The notes below the pieces were generated by a model. It was given only the letters and a program-made list of their open reading frames with translations, did no database searches and was not told the origin of the DNA. The position numbers were made by a program, and so were the translations under genes. Shown here piece by piece: positions 12,477 through 20,884 of a stretch of 64,000 nt of DNA (positions within the stretch are counted from its first letter, which is position 1; each line of letters opens with the position of its first letter). Source of the stretch: an uncultured Acidobacteriota bacterium (GTDB taxonomy: Bacteria; Acidobacteriota; Terriglobia; Terriglobales; Acidobacteriaceae); NCBI GenBank assembly GCA_903873705.1, contig CAIQPK010000050.1:1-64000 (forward strand), written 5' to 3'.

Positions 12477-13940
12477 TCAGGTTTTGGCTGGTGCGGAAGT
12501 GCGCAGCGTAAACGTAAACACCGACCCCTGTCCCGGCTGGCTGGTCACCGACATCGTTCCGCCGTGAGCCTCGATGATGGCCCGGCTGATGGCCAGCCCC
12601 ATCCCGGTGCCCGAAACAATCTGCCGCTGCGAGCTGGCGCGGTAGAACTTGTCGAAAATGAGCGACTGCTCCATCGGATCGATTCCCGCCCCGCGGTCCG
12701 CGACACTAATCGCCACGGCACCTGGACGTGCTTCAGCGCTGACGAAGATCGGCTTTCCCGGGGCGGAGTACTTCGCTGCGTTGTCGAGCAGATTACCGAG
12801 CACCTTCTGCATCCAGACCGGGTCAGCGTCCACCTTCGGAAGTCCGTTTGGCAACGTCACACTCACTTCGCGGTCGCGCAACACGGCATCATTGGCCTCC
12901 ATTGCTGACCGGATCAGTTCCTCCACGCTCTGCGCGCTGAAACTCATACGTACTTCCTGCGTATCGAGCTGCGCCATCTCGACAGCCTGCGAGACCAGCC
13001 GGTTCAGCCGGTCGCTCTCTTCGTCAATGACCGTCAGGAGGTCCCGCGCCCCCTCTGCTGACACCGACGAGGACAACAGCGTACTGACCGAAGCCTTGAT
13101 CGACGTCAACGGCGTGCGCAGCTCGTGAGTGATCGAGTCCATCATCAGTGCCCGCAGCCGCTCGCTTTCCTTGGCGGCCTCCCCCTTCGTCACCTGCTCC
13201 AGCGCCTGCGAGCGATCCAAAGAAATCGATACCAGCCCACCCAGCGCTTCCAGGCTCTGCGCGGAAAGCGTCACACCCCGCACCAGCAACACCCCACGCG
13301 GTCGCACCCCGGCACGCAGCGGAACGATGGCCGACTCACCATCCGCCGCCATAGAAGGTCCTTGCGCATGCGACATCTCGCGCAGTTCCTCCATGCTCAC
13401 GGGTGTCGGCATATCGCCCCCGGCACGATAAACGCGGTCACCTTCGAGCAGGTAGAAGACGACCGCCGAAGCGTCGGTAGCCAACGCAATCGCTACCGGT
13501 ATGTTGTTGGTCAACTCCAGTAGCTTGTCTGTTTCTAGCAGTGCTCTACTCAGTCGGTAGAGCGTTTCCAACTCTGCCTGCCGTGCAATGGCATCCGCAG
13601 ACTCCCGCCGTATACGGCTTGACATGCGGCTGGCGACCACGGAAGTCGTCAGGAAAGCGATCAACGCCAGCAGGTTCTGCGGGTCGGCAATGGTAAAGTG
13701 ACCGATCGGCGGCAGAAAAAAATAGTTGTAGGCAGCGCCTGCCGCGAACGAAGTCACCACGGCATACTGCAATCCCAGCCGCGCCGCCAGAAAAAGAATA
13801 AACAACAATAACGTCAACGCGACCGTTGTAGGGTTGACATTTAACGCCAATCGGTAGAACGCTACAATTCCGGCCAGGCACAATCCGACCCCGGCCCAGC
13901 GTGCGATCAGTACCAAACGCTTTGCATCCATGAGTGGCAT
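12477..13940 (-). CDS. KdpD-type histidine kinase, C-terminal half only (DUF4118-GAF-HisKA-HATPase)
   Basis: A 487-residue membrane sensor kinase corresponding to the C-terminal half of E. coli KdpD. Four TM helices form a DUF4118 domain (about 10-115, including NYFFLPPIGHFTIADPQN). A GAF-like domain follows (about 130-255), then HisKA with phospho-His H272 in SITHELRTPL, and HATPase motifs (LLDNAAKYSAPG, DRGAGIDP, GTGMGLAISRAI). The KdpD/Usp half is absent here and lies on the opposite strand starting 9 bases away. A second in-frame ATG at 13931 is possible; neither has a clear RBS. It probably phosphorylates KdpE. Confidence 0.85.
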   Translation of the reverse strand: MPLMDAKRLVLIARWAGVGLCLAGIVAFYRLALNVNPTTVALTLLLFILFLAARLGLQYAVVTSFAAGAAYNYFFLPPIGHFTIADPQNLLALIAFLTTSVVASRMSSRIRRESADAIARQAELETLYRLSRALLETDKLLELTNNIPVAIALATDASAVVFYLLEGDRVYRAGGDMPTPVSMEELREMSHAQGPSMAADGESAIVPLRAGVRPRGVLLVRGVTLSAQSLEALGGLVSISLDRSQALEQVTKGEAAKESERLRALMMDSITHELRTPLTSIKASVSTLLSSSVSAEGARDLLTVIDEESDRLNRLVSQAVEMAQLDTQEVRMSFSAQSVEELIRSAMEANDAVLRDREVSVTLPNGLPKVDADPVWMQKVLGNLLDNAAKYSAPGKPIFVSAEARPGAVAISVADRGAGIDPMEQSLIFDKFYRASSQRQIVSGTGMGLAISRAIIEAHGGTMSVTSQPGQGSVFTFTLRTSAPAKT

Positions 13941-13949
13941 TCTACGACC

Positions 13950-15095
13950 ATGACCGATTCACACATCTCGAAAAAAACGCCGGAAGACTGGCTGCTCTCC
14001 GCCACCGCGGCGGAAAAGAAGCAGGGTCGCTTTAAGGTTTTTCTCGGTTACGCTCCAGGAGTTGGCAAAACATTCAGCATGCTGAGCGAAGGCGTGCGCC
14101 GCAAGAGCCGCGGTGAAGATGTTGTCATCGGCATCGTCGAAACCCACGGCCGCGCCGGAACCGCAGAAGTCGCTGCGCAGCTTGAAGGCGTTCCCCGCCG
14201 CGAGATCAATTACAAGGGCACGCTGTTTTCCGAGATGGACGTCGACGCCATCCTCGCGCGCAAACCGCAGATTGCGCTGATCGACGAACTTGCCCACACC
14301 AACGTCGAAGGCAGCCGCAATGCCAAGCGCTATGAGGATGTCTTCCTGCTCCTCGACGCCAACATCGACGTGCTGACCACCGTGAACATACAGCACATCG
14401 AAAGCCTCACCCCCCGCATCCAGAGCCTCACCGGCATTACTGTCCGCGAAACCGTGCCTGACTGGGTACTCGACCGCGCCGACGAAATCGTCATCAGCGA
14501 CCTGACGCCGGAAGCCCTCGCCACCCGGATGCGGCGCGGCGATATTTACCCCGCCGAACGCGTCGAGCGCGCCCTCTCTAACTTCTTTCGCCGCGGGAAT
14601 TTGATTGCCCTGCGCGAAATGGCACTGCAGCGCGTCACCAAGGCGGTCGACAGAACGCTGGACGACTACGTCAAGCGCAAGCAGCTCGGTCCACACTTCA
14701 CGGTCGCCGAGAAGGTCGCCGTTTGCATCAGCGCCAACCCGGCTTCGCGCGACCTCATCGCCCGCGGCGCACGCCTTGCCGAAGCCATTGATGCCGAGCT
14801 TTTCGTGTTACACGTCGATACGGGCCGCAAGCCCTCCTCGCCAGAAGAAGCTCGTGCTCTGGACGGCAACATTCAATTTGCGCAGAATCTTGGCGCTAAG
14901 GTCGTGCACCTCAAGGGCACCAACGTGGCAACGGCAGCAGCCACGTTCGTGAAGCAGAACCGCGTCACGCAGGCCATCTTTGGCCGCTCGGCGCTTACAG
15001 GAATCAGAAAATATCTCTACTTTTTCGACATACAGAAGTTCATGTCGCAGGCTCCCCACGTTGATCTTCACATCGTGACGCAGGATACTCGTTAG
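13950..15095 (+). CDS. KdpD N-terminal sensor domain plus Usp domain (no kinase)
   Basis: A 381-residue soluble protein matching the cytoplasmic N-terminal half of KdpD. A Walker A-like GYAPGVGKTFS (K40), IGIVETHGR, a Walker B-like LIDELAHTN and TTVNIQHIESL fall in the KdpD domain (about 1-240). A universal stress protein-like domain follows (about 250-375). There is no TM, HisKA or HATPase. It must act in trans with the kinase encoded divergently, or through other partners. The kdpE gene begins 1 base after its stop. No Shine-Dalgarno precedes the ATG. A TTGACA at 13834 inside the kinase gene could belong to its promoter, but spacing to a -10 is poor. Confidence 0.88.
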   Translation: MTDSHISKKTPEDWLLSATAAEKKQGRFKVFLGYAPGVGKTFSMLSEGVRRKSRGEDVVIGIVETHGRAGTAEVAAQLEGVPRREINYKGTLFSEMDVDAILARKPQIALIDELAHTNVEGSRNAKRYEDVFLLLDANIDVLTTVNIQHIESLTPRIQSLTGITVRETVPDWVLDRADEIVISDLTPEALATRMRRGDIYPAERVERALSNFFRRGNLIALREMALQRVTKAVDRTLDDYVKRKQLGPHFTVAEKVAVCISANPASRDLIARGARLAEAIDAELFVLHVDTGRKPSSPEEARALDGNIQFAQNLGAKVVHLKGTNVATAAATFVKQNRVTQAIFGRSALTGIRKYLYFFDIQKFMSQAPHVDLHIVTQDTR

Positions 15096-15096
15096 C

Positions 15097-15774
15097 ATGC
15101 GCATCCTCATCGTCGACGACGAACGTCAGATTACCCGCGTCCTGCGCACTTCGCTGCAAAGCCACGGTTACGAAATACAGGTAGCACACGATGGTCTTGA
15201 AGCCTTTGAATTATTCGAACAACGTCCTCCCGATTTGATCATCACGGACCTTTCGATGCCCAACATGGACGGGCTGGAGCTCACCAAGGCGGTGCGGCGC
15301 GTTGCCGACACGCCCATCATCGTACTTTCGGTGCGCGACCAAGAAGCGACCAAGATCGCAGCGCTCGACAGCGGCGCTGACGACTACGTCACCAAGCCTT
15401 TCGGCGTACCGGAGTTGATGGCTCGCGTCCGCGCCCAGCTGCGCCGTATCGTCAAGGACGAGCCCGAGTCCGGCACCATCACCGAGGGCGACTTCGCCAT
15501 CGACACCAATGCACACCGCGTAACGCTGCGCGGCGCTGATGTGCATCTCACACCCAAGGAGTTCGATCTGCTGGTACTCTTTGCCCGCCGCACCGGCGCC
15601 GTGCTCACCCACAAGGTGCTGCTCCGCTCCATCTGGGGCCCCGCCGGAGAGGGCCAGTCCGAATATCTCCGCGTGTTGGTCGGACAGTTGCGCAAGAAGA
15701 TCGATAAACCGGATGCCGAGAGCTACATCCAGAGTGAGCCCTGGATCGGGTACCGCTTCCGTTCTCAGATCTGA
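15097..15774 (+). CDS. kdpE: KdpE response regulator (OmpR/PhoB family)
   Basis: A 225-residue two-domain regulator. The receiver (1-115) has acidic residues in VDDE, phospho-acceptor D51 in IITDLSMPNMDG, a conserved Ser/Thr region IIVLSVRDQE and Lys in VTKPFG. A winged-helix DNA-binding domain follows (about 125-222; VHLTPKEFDLLVLFARRTGAVLTHKVLLRSIWG). It starts 1 base after the KdpD N-domain gene and should activate kdpFABC at low K+. The kinase partner is most likely the divergent gene at 12477-13940. Confidence 0.93.
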   Translation: MRILIVDDERQITRVLRTSLQSHGYEIQVAHDGLEAFELFEQRPPDLIITDLSMPNMDGLELTKAVRRVADTPIIVLSVRDQEATKIAALDSGADDYVTKPFGVPELMARVRAQLRRIVKDEPESGTITEGDFAIDTNAHRVTLRGADVHLTPKEFDLLVLFARRTGAVLTHKVLLRSIWGPAGEGQSEYLRVLVGQLRKKIDKPDAESYIQSEPWIGYRFRSQI

Positions 15775-15864: not shown

Positions 15865-16227
15865 ATGAAATCACCGATCGTTGCCCTCCCCGTTGTGCTG
15901 CAGGCCGCCGCCATCGCGGCACTCTATTTCGCGGCAACAACGAGGCCCGCCGTCGTTCCCCCCACCAACGAGCCCGTCAACGAAATCGTGCTGCTCCATC
16001 AGCAGCATGATCGCATCGACGCCAGGCTCAAGGCGCTGGAGAGCCGAACCATCGCCTTTGCTCCCCGGGGAATGGGAAGCTCCCCCACCAAGTCGACTCC
16101 GACGATGGCGGGCGCTCAGTTAGGTCCATGCCCCGCAAACGGAAACGGCAGCGTGAGCGCGGTCACACCCGCTCGTGCGGATTCGCACATCACCGCTTCC
16201 CCCTACGATCTGGGCTGCATGCAGTAA
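15865..16227 (+). CDS. Small anchored or secreted protein of unknown function within the kdp locus
   Basis: A 120-residue protein I cannot assign. The N-terminus is a hydrophobic signal/anchor (IVALPVVLQAAAIAALYFAA). A short charged helix with heptad character follows (about 37-60, EIVLLHQQHDRIDARLKALE), then a Gly/Ser/Thr/Pro-rich tail with two cysteines. GAGG lies 5 bases before the ATG. It sits between kdpE and kdpF, same strand, so it may be co-regulated with the transporter. The 90-base gap after kdpE (15775-15864) is the likely site of the kdpF-A-B-C promoter. Confidence 0.55.
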   Translation: MKSPIVALPVVLQAAAIAALYFAATTRPAVVPPTNEPVNEIVLLHQQHDRIDARLKALESRTIAFAPRGMGSSPTKSTPTMAGAQLGPCPANGNGSVSAVTPARADSHITASPYDLGCMQ

Positions 16228-16290: not shown

Positions 16291-16395
16291 ATGTCCGACA
16301 TTATTTTCATACTTTCCACCGTCGCCTGCTTCGCGGTCGCACTTCTTTACGTGGCCGCCTGCAAGCGTCTGAATCCGAGGTCGTCCCGTGATTGA
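16291..16395 (+). CDS. 34-residue single-TM peptide upstream of kdpF
   Basis: A short ORF with a good GGAGA site 6 bases before its ATG. The protein begins MSDIIFILSTVACFAVALLY, one TM helix, and ends with a basic tail (CKRLNPRSSRD). Its last 8 bases overlap the GTG of kdpF, so the two are likely translationally coupled. It resembles KdpF in size and topology but lacks the LVYAL motif. It may be a second small subunit or a leader peptide for kdpF. Confidence 0.6.
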   Translation: MSDIIFILSTVACFAVALLYVAACKRLNPRSSRD

Positions 16396-16474
16396 GAACA
16401 TCATCCTCCTCTCTCTTTCGATCCTGTTGATGGTGTACCTGGTGTACGCCCTGCTCCGCCCGGAGAAATTCTGA
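16388..16474 (+). CDS. kdpF: KdpF, small subunit of the K+-transporting ATPase
   Basis: A 28-residue one-helix peptide starting at GTG 16388. The end (MVYLVYALLRPEKF) matches the YLVYALINAEAF-type signature of KdpF. It stabilises the KdpABC complex in the membrane. Its stop overlaps the kdpA ATG (TGATG, 16472-16476), the usual kdpFA arrangement. Confidence 0.85.
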   Translation: MIENIILLSLSILLMVYLVYALLRPEKF

Positions 16475-18249
16475 TGACCACGAACGGCTGGCTTCAAATC
16501 GCACTGTACTTTCTTGTCCTGCTGGCGCTGACCAAGCCCATGGGCTCCTATCTGACTCTCGTGTTCGACCGCCGCCGCACGTGGCTCGACCCGGTGCTCA
16601 ATCCGATTGAGCGCGTTGTCTATCGCCTCACAGGCATCGACGCCGACGAAGAGATGCGATGGACGCAGTACCTGGCCGCGATGCTGATCTTCAGTGCCGC
16701 AACGCTGCTGCTTACCTACATCGTCGAGCGCGCGCAGGCCGTTCTTCCATTCAATCCGCAGCACCTGCCAGGTGTTGAGCCGTGGCTCGCGTGGAATACC
16801 GCCGTCTCGTTTACCACCAACACTAACTGGCAGGCCTACACGCCAGAAACGACCATGAGTTACTTCACGCAGATGTTTGGCCTGGCCACGCACAACTTCT
16901 GGTCAGCGGCCGTTGGCCTCGCGCTTGCCGTCGCCTTCATTCGCGGCATCTCGCGTCGCGAAATGAAGACTCTTGGCAGCTTCTGGGTCGACATGACGCG
17001 CGGCATCCTCTGGGTGCTCGCGCCCATCTCCATCGTCTTCGCCCTGGCGCTCGTTTCGCAGGGTGTCGTGCAGAACCTCCGCTCCTATGACACGGCAAAG
17101 GTTGTCGAGGCGCAGAAATCAACCACGACAGGCGCAGACGGAAAATCCTCAACGACAATCATCTCCACGCAAACCATCGCTCAGGGACCGGTTGCTTCGC
17201 AGGAAGCCATTAAGATGCTCGGTACCAACGGCGGCGGCTTCTTCAACGCCAATAGCGCGCACCCGTTCGAAAACCCAACGCCTTTCTCCAACTTCCTGCA
17301 GATGCTTTCGATTTTCCTGATCCCTGCCGGCCTCACCGTCATGCTCGGACAGATGACCAGTTCGCCGAAGCACGGTTGGGCGGTCTTCGCGGCAATGGCG
17401 ATCCTGTGGTTCGGCGGAGTCGCGGCATGCTACTGGGCGGAGTCGCACGCCACTCCCGTCCTCGCCGCAACCAGCTCCCAGGTCTCGCCCCTGCAGAGCG
17501 GCGGCAACATGGAGGGCAAGGAAACCCGCTTCGGCATCGCCAACTCAACGCTCTTCGCCACGATCACCACCGACGCCAGTTGCGGCGCCGTCAACGCCAT
17601 GCACGACTCCTTCACCCCGCTCGGCGGCATGATTCCCATGGTGAACATCCTGCTCGGGGAGATCGTCTTCGGCGGTGTCGGCGCAGGCATGTACGGCATG
17701 CTGATCTTCGTCATCGTTGCCGTCTTCATAGCGGGGCTGATGGTCGGCCGGACGCCAGAGTACCTCGGCAAGAAGATCGAAGCCTACGACATACAGATGG
17801 CGATGCTTTATCTGCTGATCTTTCCGCTCATCATCAAGGGCTTTACCGCCATCGCGGTCCTGGCGCCCACTTTCGGTTTATCGAGCCTCACCAACCACGG
17901 CCCGCACGGGCTCTCGGAGATCCTCTACGCTTACACCTCGGCGACCGGCAACAACGGCTCTGCCTTCGCAGGCCTGAACGCGAACACGCATTGGTACAAC
18001 GCCTCGCTAGGTGTCGCGATGTTTGCAGGGCGCTTCCTGATGTTGATTCCGATGCTGGCGATCGCGGGCAATCTCGCCGCGAAGAAGAGCGTGCCGGCGA
18101 CAGCGGGAACGTTTCCCGTCACCACGCCGCTCTTCACCACGCTGCTCACCGGCGTCATCCTCATTGTCGGCGCGCTCACCTTCTTCCCCGTGCTTTCACT
18201 CGGCCCTGTGCTTGAGCATCTGCTCATGCGCGCCGGCCAAAGCTTCTAG
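16474..18249 (+). CDS. kdpA: Potassium-transporting ATPase subunit KdpA
   Basis: A 591-residue polytopic membrane protein that forms the K+-selective channel-like subunit. Family landmarks are [16 protein letters not shown], the strongly conserved [21 protein letters not shown] (about 249-269), [19 protein letters not shown] and [12 protein letters not shown], which carry the selectivity-filter loops. Length is close to the usual 560-600. It begins with an ATG overlapping the kdpF stop and is followed 13 bases later by kdpB. It is induced through KdpE at low external K+, by homology. Confidence 0.97.
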
Positions 18250-18262
18250 TCAGGAGACTCAG

Positions 18263-20308
18263 ATGTCTACGTTTGAAAACAAGAATCGGCGCTCATTGCT
18301 CGACCCGCAGATCATGCGCCGCGCCTCGGTCGACGCCCTGCTGAAGCTCAACCCAAAGTCCATGATGAAGAACCCGGTCATGTTCGTCGTGGAAGTCGGC
18401 AGCGTACTCACCACCGTGATGCTGCTGCGCGATAGCTTGCGCCACCAGGGCCACTTCGGCTTCGATCTACAGATCACGCTGTGGCTGTGGTTCACTGTGC
18501 TCTTCGCCAACTTCGCCGAAGCCATGGCCGAAGGCCGCGGCAAGGCCCAGGCTGACGCCCTGCGCCGCGCAAAATCGGAAACCACCGCTTATCGCATCGG
18601 CAAGAATGGCCTTGAAGAAATCCCGAGCTCTCAGTTGCGCGCGGGAGACGTGGTCCGAGTCGTTGCCGGCCAAATGATACCGGGCGATGGCGATGTCATT
18701 GAAGGCGTCGCCTCGGTCGACGAGTCCGCCATCACCGGCGAATCTGCACCGGTGATACGGGAAGCCGGGGGCGACCGCTCGTCTGTCACTGGAGGGACGC
18801 GAGTGTTGTCGGACGTGATCACCATCCGGATCACGTCCAACCCCGGCGAAACTTTTATCGACCGCATGATCGCGCTCGTTGAAGGCGCCGAACGCCAGAA
18901 GACTCCGAACGAGATCGCGCTCAACATCCTGCTCGCAGGCCTCACCATCATCTTCCTGCTCGCCGTGGTCACGCTGCAGCCGTTCGCTATCTACTCCGGC
19001 GCACCGCAGACAGCCTTCGTGCTGATCTCGCTGCTCGTCTGCCTCATCCCCACCACGATCGGCGGTCTGCTCTCGGCCATCGGCATCGCAGGCATGGACC
19101 GCCTGGTGCAGCACAATGTTCTCGCCACTTCCGGCCGCGCTGTTGAAGCCGCTGGCGACGTCAACACGCTGCTGCTCGACAAGACCGGCACCATCACCAT
19201 GGGCAACCGCCAGGCATCGGAGTTCGTTCCCGCTCCCGGCGTCTCCAGCGACCAACTCGCCGACGCCGCACAGCTTTCCTCGCTGCCCGACGAAACGCCC
19301 GAAGGGCGTTCCATCGTCGTACTCGCCAAAGAACGCTACGGCCTCCGCGGCCGCGAGTTTGCGGAGCTCAACGCGCAATTCATTCCCTTCAGCGCCACCA
19401 CGCGTATGTCGGGCCTCGACATGGACGGCCGCAGCATCCGTAAGGGCGCGGTCGACGCCATTGCTGCTTACCTCGTAGAGCTCGGGAGCTCGTTGCCCGC
19501 TGAAGTTCGGGCTGCAGTCGACGTCATCGCACGCAGCGGTGGCACACCGCTAGTCGTGGCTGAAAACGGTCACGCCCTCGGCGTCATTCATCTCAAAGAC
19601 GTCGTCAAAGGCGGCATGAAGGAGCGCTTTGCACAGCTCCGCGCCATGGGCATCCGCACCGTCATGATCACCGGCGACAACCCGCTCACCGCTGCCGCCA
19701 TCGCCCGCGAGGCCGGGCTCGACGACTTTCTCGCCGAAGCCAAGCCGAAGGACAAGATGGACCTCATCCGCCGCGAGCAGGCCGAAGGCAAACTCGTCGC
19801 CATGACCGGTGACGGCACCAACGACGCACCCGCGCTCGCCCAGGCAGACGTAGGCGTCGCCATGAACTCCGGCACCCAGGCCGCCAAGGAAGCCGGCAAC
19901 ATGGTCGATCTCGATTCCGACCCAACCAAGCTGATCGAGATCGTAGCCATCGGCAAGCAGCTGTTGATGACCCGCGGTGCGCTCACCACGTTCTCCATCT
20001 CTAACGATGTGGCCAAATACTTCGCCATCATTCCCGCCATGTTTGCAGGCGTCTTCCCCGTGTTGAACGCGCTCAACGTGATGCACCTGCATAGCCCGGA
20101 GTCGGCGATTCTTTCGGCGGTCATCTTCAACGCGTTGATCATCATTGCGTTGATTCCCCTGGCACTGCGCGGCGTTTCCTACAAGGCGATGTCCGCCGCT
20201 GCGCTGCTGCAGAAAAACCTGCTGGTCTACGGCCTCGGCGGCATCATCGTACCGTTCATCGGAATCAAGGCCATCGACATCATCATCACCGCCATCCACC
20301 TGGCATAA
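18263..20308 (+). CDS. kdpB: Potassium-transporting ATPase ATP-binding subunit KdpB
   Basis: A 681-residue P-type ATPase (class IA) that energises K+ uptake by KdpA. The phosphorylated Asp is D306 in [12 protein letters not shown]. The actuator motif is [11 protein letters not shown], the nucleotide-binding loop includes [10 protein letters not shown], and the hinge motif is [31 protein letters not shown]. The start is the ATG at 18263 with AGGAG 6 bases upstream; the open frame upstream overlaps kdpA and is not used. kdpC follows after 9 bases. Confidence 0.97.
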
Positions 20309-20317
20309 GGGGCTTCT

Positions 20318-20884
20318 ATGAAAAAGCACATCATCACCTCCCTGCTCTACACCGCCATCACCGCTGTCCTGCTGGGTGTCGTCTACCCCCTCGTGGTTAC
20401 GGGCATCGCTCACCTTGCCTTCGCCGACAAGGCGAGCGGTCAGCTCATCCACAACGCCAACGGCGAGGTCGTCGGCTCGAAACTCATCGGCCAGGCCTTC
20501 ACCGGCGCCAACTACTTCCATAGCCGTCCGTCAGCCGCTGGTACCGGCTACGACGCCGGAGCCTCTTCGGGCTCGAACCTCGGACCCACCAGCAAGGCAC
20601 TCGGCGACCGTGTCACTGCCAGCATCGCCACCGAAACCAACGGCACCCCGGTCCCGGTTGATCTGGTGACGGCATCAGCCTCTGGACTCGATCCCGACGT
20701 CTCGCCGGCGGCCGCCTTCTACCAGGTTGCCCGCGTAGCCAAAGAGCGCCGGCTTTCCGAAGACGCCGTACGGCAACTGGTAGCGGACAACATCACGCCG
20801 CGTCAGTTCGGCATTCTGGGCGAGCCGCGCGTGAACGTGCTCAACCTCAACATGAAGCTCGACCTGATGGCGCCCGCGAAATAA
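20318..20884 (+). CDS. kdpC: Potassium-transporting ATPase subunit KdpC
   Basis: A 188-residue protein with one N-terminal TM (SLLYTAITAVLLGVVYPLVVTGI) and a periplasmic domain. The family signatures NGEVVGSKLIGQAF, YFHSRPSAAG, SSGSNLGPT and DLVTASASGLDPDVSP are all visible. It stabilises the complex and aids ATP binding by KdpB. AAGGGG lies about 5 bases before the ATG. It is the last gene of the kdp operon. Confidence 0.96.
   Translation: MKKHIITSLLYTAITAVLLGVVYPLVVTGIAHLAFADKASGQLIHNANGEVVGSKLIGQAFTGANYFHSRPSAAGTGYDAGASSGSNLGPTSKALGDRVTASIATETNGTPVPVDLVTASASGLDPDVSPAAAFYQVARVAKERRLSEDAVRQLVADNITPRQFGILGEPRVNVLNLNMKLDLMAPAK

Follow-up and report, generated by a model that had tools for sequence, protein, structure and literature searches.

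KdpD is encoded by two head-to-head genes in the 64,000-nucleotide stretch of DNA analysed here (the window), from an uncultured bacterium of the Acidobacteriaceae. The arrangement is probably best explained as a split KdpD in which the kinase half is read from leaderless mRNA, the promoter of the operon led by the N half is embedded in the kinase gene, and a negative feedback is built in. In the proposed mechanism the plus-strand KdpD/Usp protein would be a stand-alone atypical serine kinase (ASK) that shuts the K+ pump by phosphorylating KdpB at its TGES serine, and the minus-strand protein would be a K+-sensing histidine kinase that phosphorylates KdpE. The leaderless mRNA of the kinase half would have its -10 box in the 18-base gap between the genes, and the N-kdpE-kdpFABC operon would start at a promoter in the first codons of the kinase gene.

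Organization of the kdp locus

As the original prediction had described, both open reading frames are present as separate genes on opposite strands, head-to-head. The minus-strand gene (12477-13931, with an alternative start at 13940) encodes the 484-amino acid kinase half, comprising DUF4118, a domain at the GAF position, HisKA, and HATPase; it was assigned by Pfam and NCBIfam matches, and its start was placed by comparison with relatives. The plus-strand gene (13950-15095) encodes the 381-amino acid N half, recognized from profile matches and motifs as a KdpD domain with Walker A and B followed by Usp. It is followed on the same strand by the kdpE response regulator (15097-15774), which has Response_reg and Trans_reg_C domains and scores 188.4 bits with the KdpE model NF007820, under its cut-off of 325. 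The pump genes, also on the plus strand, are kdpA (16474-18249; TIGR00680, 738 bits), kdpB (18263-20308; TIGR01497, 1079.6 bits; start placed by eye at ATG 18263, the open reading frame list giving TTG 18164), and kdpC (20318-20884; PF02669, 9.7e-69). Directly 5' of kdpA, a GTG-initiated frame (16388-16474, plus strand) whose peptide ends in LVYALLRPEKF is taken by us to be kdpF.

Two further plus-strand frames lie between kdpE and kdpF. A 120-amino acid frame (15865-16227) has no Pfam or NCBIfam match, and no tblastn match to it was shown in 44 relative loci. A small hydrophobic frame of 34 amino acids (16291-16395), with an LYVxACDRLKG-like end, has a counterpart by eye in all 16 of the kdpA-upstream regions displayed.

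The two proteins

The kinase half matches HATPase_c (3.8e-29), DUF4118 (7.9e-21), and HisKA (1.4e-12) in Pfam, and these domains stand in KdpD order, as in a KdpD-type histidine kinase. Its best NCBIfam match is KdpD NF007793, over positions 401-885, with 178.8 bits against a cut-off of 1123 for the full-length protein. The architecture originally proposed, DUF4118-GAF-HisKA-HATPase, is thus borne out for three domains but not for GAF, for which Pfam gave no match at 1e-3; the corresponding region is covered only by the continuous NF007793 alignment and by an alpha/beta domain (residues 137-235) in an AF2 model with mean pLDDT 90.8 and pTM 0.57. A structure search with the whole kinase-half model returned mostly kinase cores and no KdpD GAF entry among the best 50 matches listed. 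Three other DUF4118 matches occur in the same genome, two of them over the cut-off.

The N half matches PF02702 at 3.5e-91 and Usp at 9.3e-05 (23.4 bits, against a gathering score of 24). With NF038185 (KdpD_non_kinase) it scores 373.7 bits over positions 2-372 of 373, against a cut-off of 550, and is not assigned to that model; one solved relative is 2r8r (E 8.6e-62). Walker A (GYAPGVGKT) and Walker B (ALIDELAHT) are intact, as expected of an ASK chain, and the residue after GKT is F, at the position where we take the adenine-contacting W39 of E. coli (of the pair W39/R190) to lie. PF02702 occurs once in the genome by profile search, which rules out a full-length KdpD elsewhere, a finding that, for a protein pairing with this KdpE, the original prediction had named as a refutation. 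The window KdpB carries ITGESAP, including the TGES serine that is the published target residue, which is weak evidence; TGES is common to P-type ATPases.

Published work on E. coli KdpD describes its N domain as an atypical serine kinase with KdpB as its substrate and places the K+-sensing sites proposed for that protein in the TM/GAF part (excerpt of PMC11018627). The original prediction had divided the pair into a sensing half and a signalling half and concluded that sensing must work in trans. This is not supported by the published assignment: the proposed sites would here belong to the kinase chain and the N half would be the putative serine kinase, so sensing in trans is not required.

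Conservation of the head-to-head pair

The divergent pair was searched for in relatives, a check that the original prediction had proposed. The genus set comprised 28 genomes including that of the window, of which 25 have KdpD-N; the three without it are 84, 74, and 54% complete. N and the kinase half are head-to-head in 24 of the 25, so the pairing is not due to chance. One of these, G001, has a 1.1-kb insert with a 229-amino acid frame between the halves. The exception, G025 (94% complete, 4% contamination), has a kinase half of 58% identity on another contig. Among named loci retrieved by sequence, which include Granulicella mallensis, G. rosea, and G. paludicola, 35 of the 36 with an N half at least 56% identical are head-to-head and L097 is co-directional; these 36 are the top of the best 80 of 486 matches. 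Thirty-four of them carry acidobacterial titles, the two others being Rhodanobacteraceae (L092) and simply "bacterium" (L095), and eight apparently repeat genomes already counted (L084, L085, L087-L090, L101, L112). None of the other 44 of the best 80, at 43-49% identity or less, has a close pair; at L140 a kinase core is matched weakly, in divergent orientation, 551 nt from N.

Outside the genus a KdpD match was obtained in 19 relatives, and 4 of them have the pair, two of the same family (G033, G036) and two of the same class (G055, G058). A co-directional kinase match lies beside N in G029, G035, and G044; the remainder have no kinase match beside N, and many have tandem N genes. A kinase half consistently lacking this neighbour, which was to count against the pairing, is therefore not what the genus has, but distant relatives are often without the pair. 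By these sequence comparisons, the head-to-head pair characterizes a single branch among the short KdpD proteins.

Loci from outside the genus with KdpD-N genes in tandem are L035, L036, L038, L039, L040, L065, L066, L070, and L075. At all nine of these loci the weaker copy has Asp-Gly for Asp-Glu in Walker B, and its sequence marks it as a possible pseudokinase adjoining an intact kinase.

The position of kdpE is more variable. It is downstream of N in 20 of the 25 genus genomes, and lies on the kinase side, following the kinase half, in L103-L111, L114, L115, and L118. In G024 kdpE follows kdpC with the N-kinase pair still together, and in G021 (L165) the pair is kept and kdpE and kdpABC are on another contig. 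Three loci (L044, L048, and L059, of G022, G002, and G010) have no kdpE match between N and kdpA. At 1e-40, the best matches to KdpE in the three genomes lie elsewhere and have 40-49% identity, and at L048 the interval between N and kdpA holds glycosyltransferase-like and porin-like frames by eye.

Start codons and a predicted promoter of the kinase half

In relatives, the kinase gene begins at the aligned counterpart of the window ATG at 13931, and this codon is GTG in 20 of 24 genus loci. The gap between the halves is therefore likely 18 bases (13932-13949); the close head-to-head spacing originally reported stands, but not its size of 9 bases.

A TANNNT box lies at a spacer of 6-7 before the kinase start in 23 of the 24 genus loci, a count made at the aligned kinase start only; in the 24th, L042, the box is at 9 nt. 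The background frequency of the pattern is 168 of 19,698 ATG or GTG codons in the genus loci (0.85%). The predicted -10 box in the window is TAGAAT (13939-13944, minus strand), with a spacer of 7 to ATG 13931. A candidate kinase start with a box at a spacer of 5-8 was also found in 34 of the 35 divergent named loci and in all four pairs outside the genus, although that scan accepted starts as far as 120 nt upstream and 30 nt downstream of the match and showed those that carry a box, a procedure biased toward finding one. The two-hexamer consensus scan does not report a kinase promoter. TANNNT about 12 bp upstream of the start has been given as the signature of TA-led leaderless genes, and such genes were predicted in all three Acidobacteria genomes studied, at an average of 13.3% of genes (excerpt of PMC3160421). 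The kinase half carries this signature, and on the strength of the motif it looks leaderless.

The N half differs within the genus. A GGAG-type Shine-Dalgarno sequence precedes N in 20 of the 24 loci by eye, and in many relatives it reaches up to, or almost to, the kinase start codon; the N start is often TTG, and also GTG, in relatives. The window N half starts with ATG and has no Shine-Dalgarno sequence, so that the earlier observation of no clear ribosome binding site describes the window but not the genus. In the window, the N transcript may also be leaderless.

A predicted promoter for the N operon inside the kinase gene

In 20 of the 24 genus loci TACAATTCC stands on the plus strand, beginning 66 nt inside the kinase gene from its start codon. 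On the kinase strand the same bases are the codons GGA-ATT-GTA, whose use elsewhere in these genes is 0.24, 0.27, and 0.09. In the window the predicted -10 box is TACAAT (13863-13868, plus strand), within these codons, with a TTAACG hexamer (13841-13846, plus strand) 16 nt 5' of it; TTAACG-16-TACAAT is the only promoter-like match of the consensus scan in 13500-14400 (0.3 expected), and its -35 part is weak.

The codons over this motif are constrained. Identity at four-fold sites in kinase codons 1-30 is 0.521, against a gene mean of 0.411 (p 0.001), and two motif sites are at 0.91; when codons 19-27, which hold the motif, are left out, the excess drops to p 0.088. The rows behind these resampling p-values are related, so each genome does not count as an independent observation. 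As an alternative cause, a codon effect common to the 5' ends of genes was considered; it is not seen over codons 1-30 of N, kdpE, kdpA, kdpB, and kdpC (p 0.53, 0.85, 0.40, 0.92, and 0.06, respectively). A 25-codon scan found a second synonymous peak at N codons 26-50, over Walker A (0.528, p 0.001). This second peak and the count of 4 in 19 outside the genus weigh slightly against the main reading.

Two natural separations of the genes indicate where the motif belongs. In G025 TACAATTCCGGCCAG remains upstream of N after its separation from the kinase gene, and the kinase gene, now elsewhere, has TGC-ATA-GTC at the motif site and keeps its own leaderless-type box. In G001 the stretch retained beside N is a motif-bearing remnant of the 5' end of the kinase gene, and the true kinase gene reads TACGATCCC. 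In both cases the motif was kept with N and lost from the kinase gene; thus the genes diverge and their predicted promoters face each other. By its position and constraint, TACAATTCC appears to be the -10 box of the N-kdpE-pump operon, inside the first codons of the kinase gene. The original prediction had offered two options, promoters located within the opposite gene or mRNAs without a leader, and the evidence points to one of each, with the kinase half leaderless and the N promoter embedded.

A single symmetric promoter in the gap could instead serve both genes, the motif in the kinase gene being a coding coincidence. The gap is short enough to suggest this, and plus-strand TATAAT overlaps the minus-strand box in several relatives (for example L051, L053, L056, and L057); however, the plus-strand box in those relatives abuts the N start codon, downstream of the Shine-Dalgarno sequence, and the kinase-gene motif stays with N after separation, which makes a shared promoter unlikely. 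Inherited synteny without regulatory meaning is also to be weighed, since neighbouring genes of one pathway often stay together and synonymous peaks occur elsewhere too, as at N codons 26-50. The constraint at the motif codons and the retention of a short kinase-gene remnant beside N in G001 speak against it, and this explanation is judged quite unlikely.

The embedded motif was also considered as a class-wide feature. This was rejected because it is exact in just 3 of the 29 named loci examined, two of these being repeats of genus genomes, and it is taken as a feature of the lineage; TACAATTCC is absent in L041 and L042 and altered in L063. A different plus-strand motif, TA(A/G)AAT, was observed in the kinase gene 183-195 nt upstream of N at L103-L119 and L037 (13 of 16 named loci, L112 not counted, plus L037), and coding constraint could account for it.

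With a facing embedded promoter and a leaderless kinase half, the predicted transcription starts would be near 13875 (plus strand) and 13931 (minus strand), and the 5' ends of the two transcripts would overlap by about 57 nt. Given facing promoters and overlapping transcripts, switching on the pump operon would be expected to block the kinase promoter and to yield RNA antisense to the kinase start, a putative built-in negative feedback.

Diadenylate cyclase and the input to the serine kinase

A profile search found the DAC domain in none of the 28 genus genomes, that of the window included. The same search matched 18 of 61 genomes at 1e-39 or better; 7 of the 9 family genomes from other genera have DAC, and 11 of the 14 control genomes match, E. 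coli not being among these. YbbR, which is usually found beside diadenylate cyclase, is absent from the genome of the window. In a second sample, six genomes of the family genus g28 are without DAC, and G033 (also in the first sample), G082, and G132, from other genera of the family, have it. An even sample of the phylum has DAC in 98 of 119 Acidobacteriota genomes, with G173 assigned by elimination.

The c-di-AMP of such cyclases could act on the N half through its Usp domain, since the short KdpD of Deinococcus geothermalis is stimulated by c-di-AMP (excerpt of PMC11018627) and has the same KdpD/Usp architecture, and most sampled Acidobacteriota have a cyclase. With no DAC in any genus genome, c-di-AMP control as published for a short KdpD cannot account for this lineage and is highly improbable here. 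The c-di-AMP input to the serine kinase thus seems to be missing in the genus, and the lineage, judged by its gene content, would carry a serine kinase without the known input.

Several related observations were made. The c-di-AMP motif of the S. aureus Usp, (A/G/C)XSXSX2N(Y/F) (excerpt of PMC8214093), is not matched by the window, which has CISANPASR; as a marker of cyclase loss the motif is not diagnostic, since relatives with DAC are without it too. A link of cyclase loss to a neighbouring kinase half was dropped because it did not discriminate in the relatives set. In the phylum sample KdpD was over the cut-off in 19 of the 21 genomes without DAC against 18 of the 98 with it, genomes that are clustered in few families and compared here with relatedness ignored. 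These 37 genomes include 18 with only a short frame (under 600 amino acids, stop to stop; 8 without DAC and 10 with it) and 17 with a full-length frame, the fragment in G114 and the ambiguous 872-amino acid frame in G095 being left out.

A serine kinase in a genus without diadenylate cyclase needs another K+ input, and this has a bearing on a model of mutual control in trans, in which binding of the N protein would adjust the kinase/phosphatase balance of the kinase half, the kinase half would in turn set the serine kinase, and the two chains would rebuild a full KdpD. N is linked more tightly to the kinase half (24 of 25 genomes) than to kdpE (20 of 25), and both genes are still present in G025, where they are unlinked. 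The interlocked promoters explain the linkage as well, however, and separate regulation of the separate chains is the published proposal (excerpt of PMC11018627); furthermore, a DUF4118 kinase stands beside a KdpE-like regulator with no N match in the 6-kb stretch L166. Sensing in trans is accordingly a possible but doubtful account. A wider scenario, in which the lineage lost c-di-AMP, the membrane-bound kinase half passes the K+ signal in trans to the stand-alone serine kinase, the embedded promoter holds the genes head-to-head, and pump induction lowers kinase synthesis, is tentative and on balance somewhat unlikely as a whole. The preferred reading, the split KdpD with a leaderless kinase half and an embedded N promoter, can be set beside the systems already described.

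Comparison with known systems

A split kdpD within two divergent kdp operons has reportedly been described for Alicyclobacillus acidocaldarius, according to the title of a 2006 study by Schleussinger, and by that title the split and the divergence are shared with the window. In Alicyclobacillus, however, the ASK chain is downstream of the pump genes (excerpt of PMC11018627), whereas here N heads the operon, head-to-head with the kinase half. Split KdpD chains, an ASK chain and a histidine kinase chain, have already been described in Acidobacteriota and Chloroflexota (excerpt of PMC11018627). As in the window, those have a KdpD/Usp chain separate from a TM/GAF/DHp-CA kinase chain, with kdpE present; the excerpt reports chain classes, while gene order, promoters, and a cyclase-free lineage are reported here. 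The D. geothermalis protein has the same two-domain chain but is stimulated by c-di-AMP, whereas no diadenylate cyclase was found in the present genus. E. coli KdpD has the same domains (GAF is not confirmed here) in one chain instead of two genes. Excludons, or overlapping 5' transcripts, likewise involve opposed genes with overlapping transcripts; here the overlap, of about 57 nt, is only predicted.

No report of this gene order or of these promoters was found among the matches listed from the open-access literature, a scope that most subscription journals fall outside, and one Granulicella omics paper matched "KDPG" only. The split itself is therefore already known; the interlocked promoters and the cyclase-free lineage, as read from these genomes, appear to be new.

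The locus is a small-scale case of a predicted promoter under constraint within codons, with two natural separations in its support, and the predicted effect on kinase synthesis would be easily measured. It is also a test case for the 2024 serine-kinase model, since it asks what activates the pump-inhibiting kinase when that kinase is off the K+-sensor chain and in a lineage without the known c-di-AMP cyclase.
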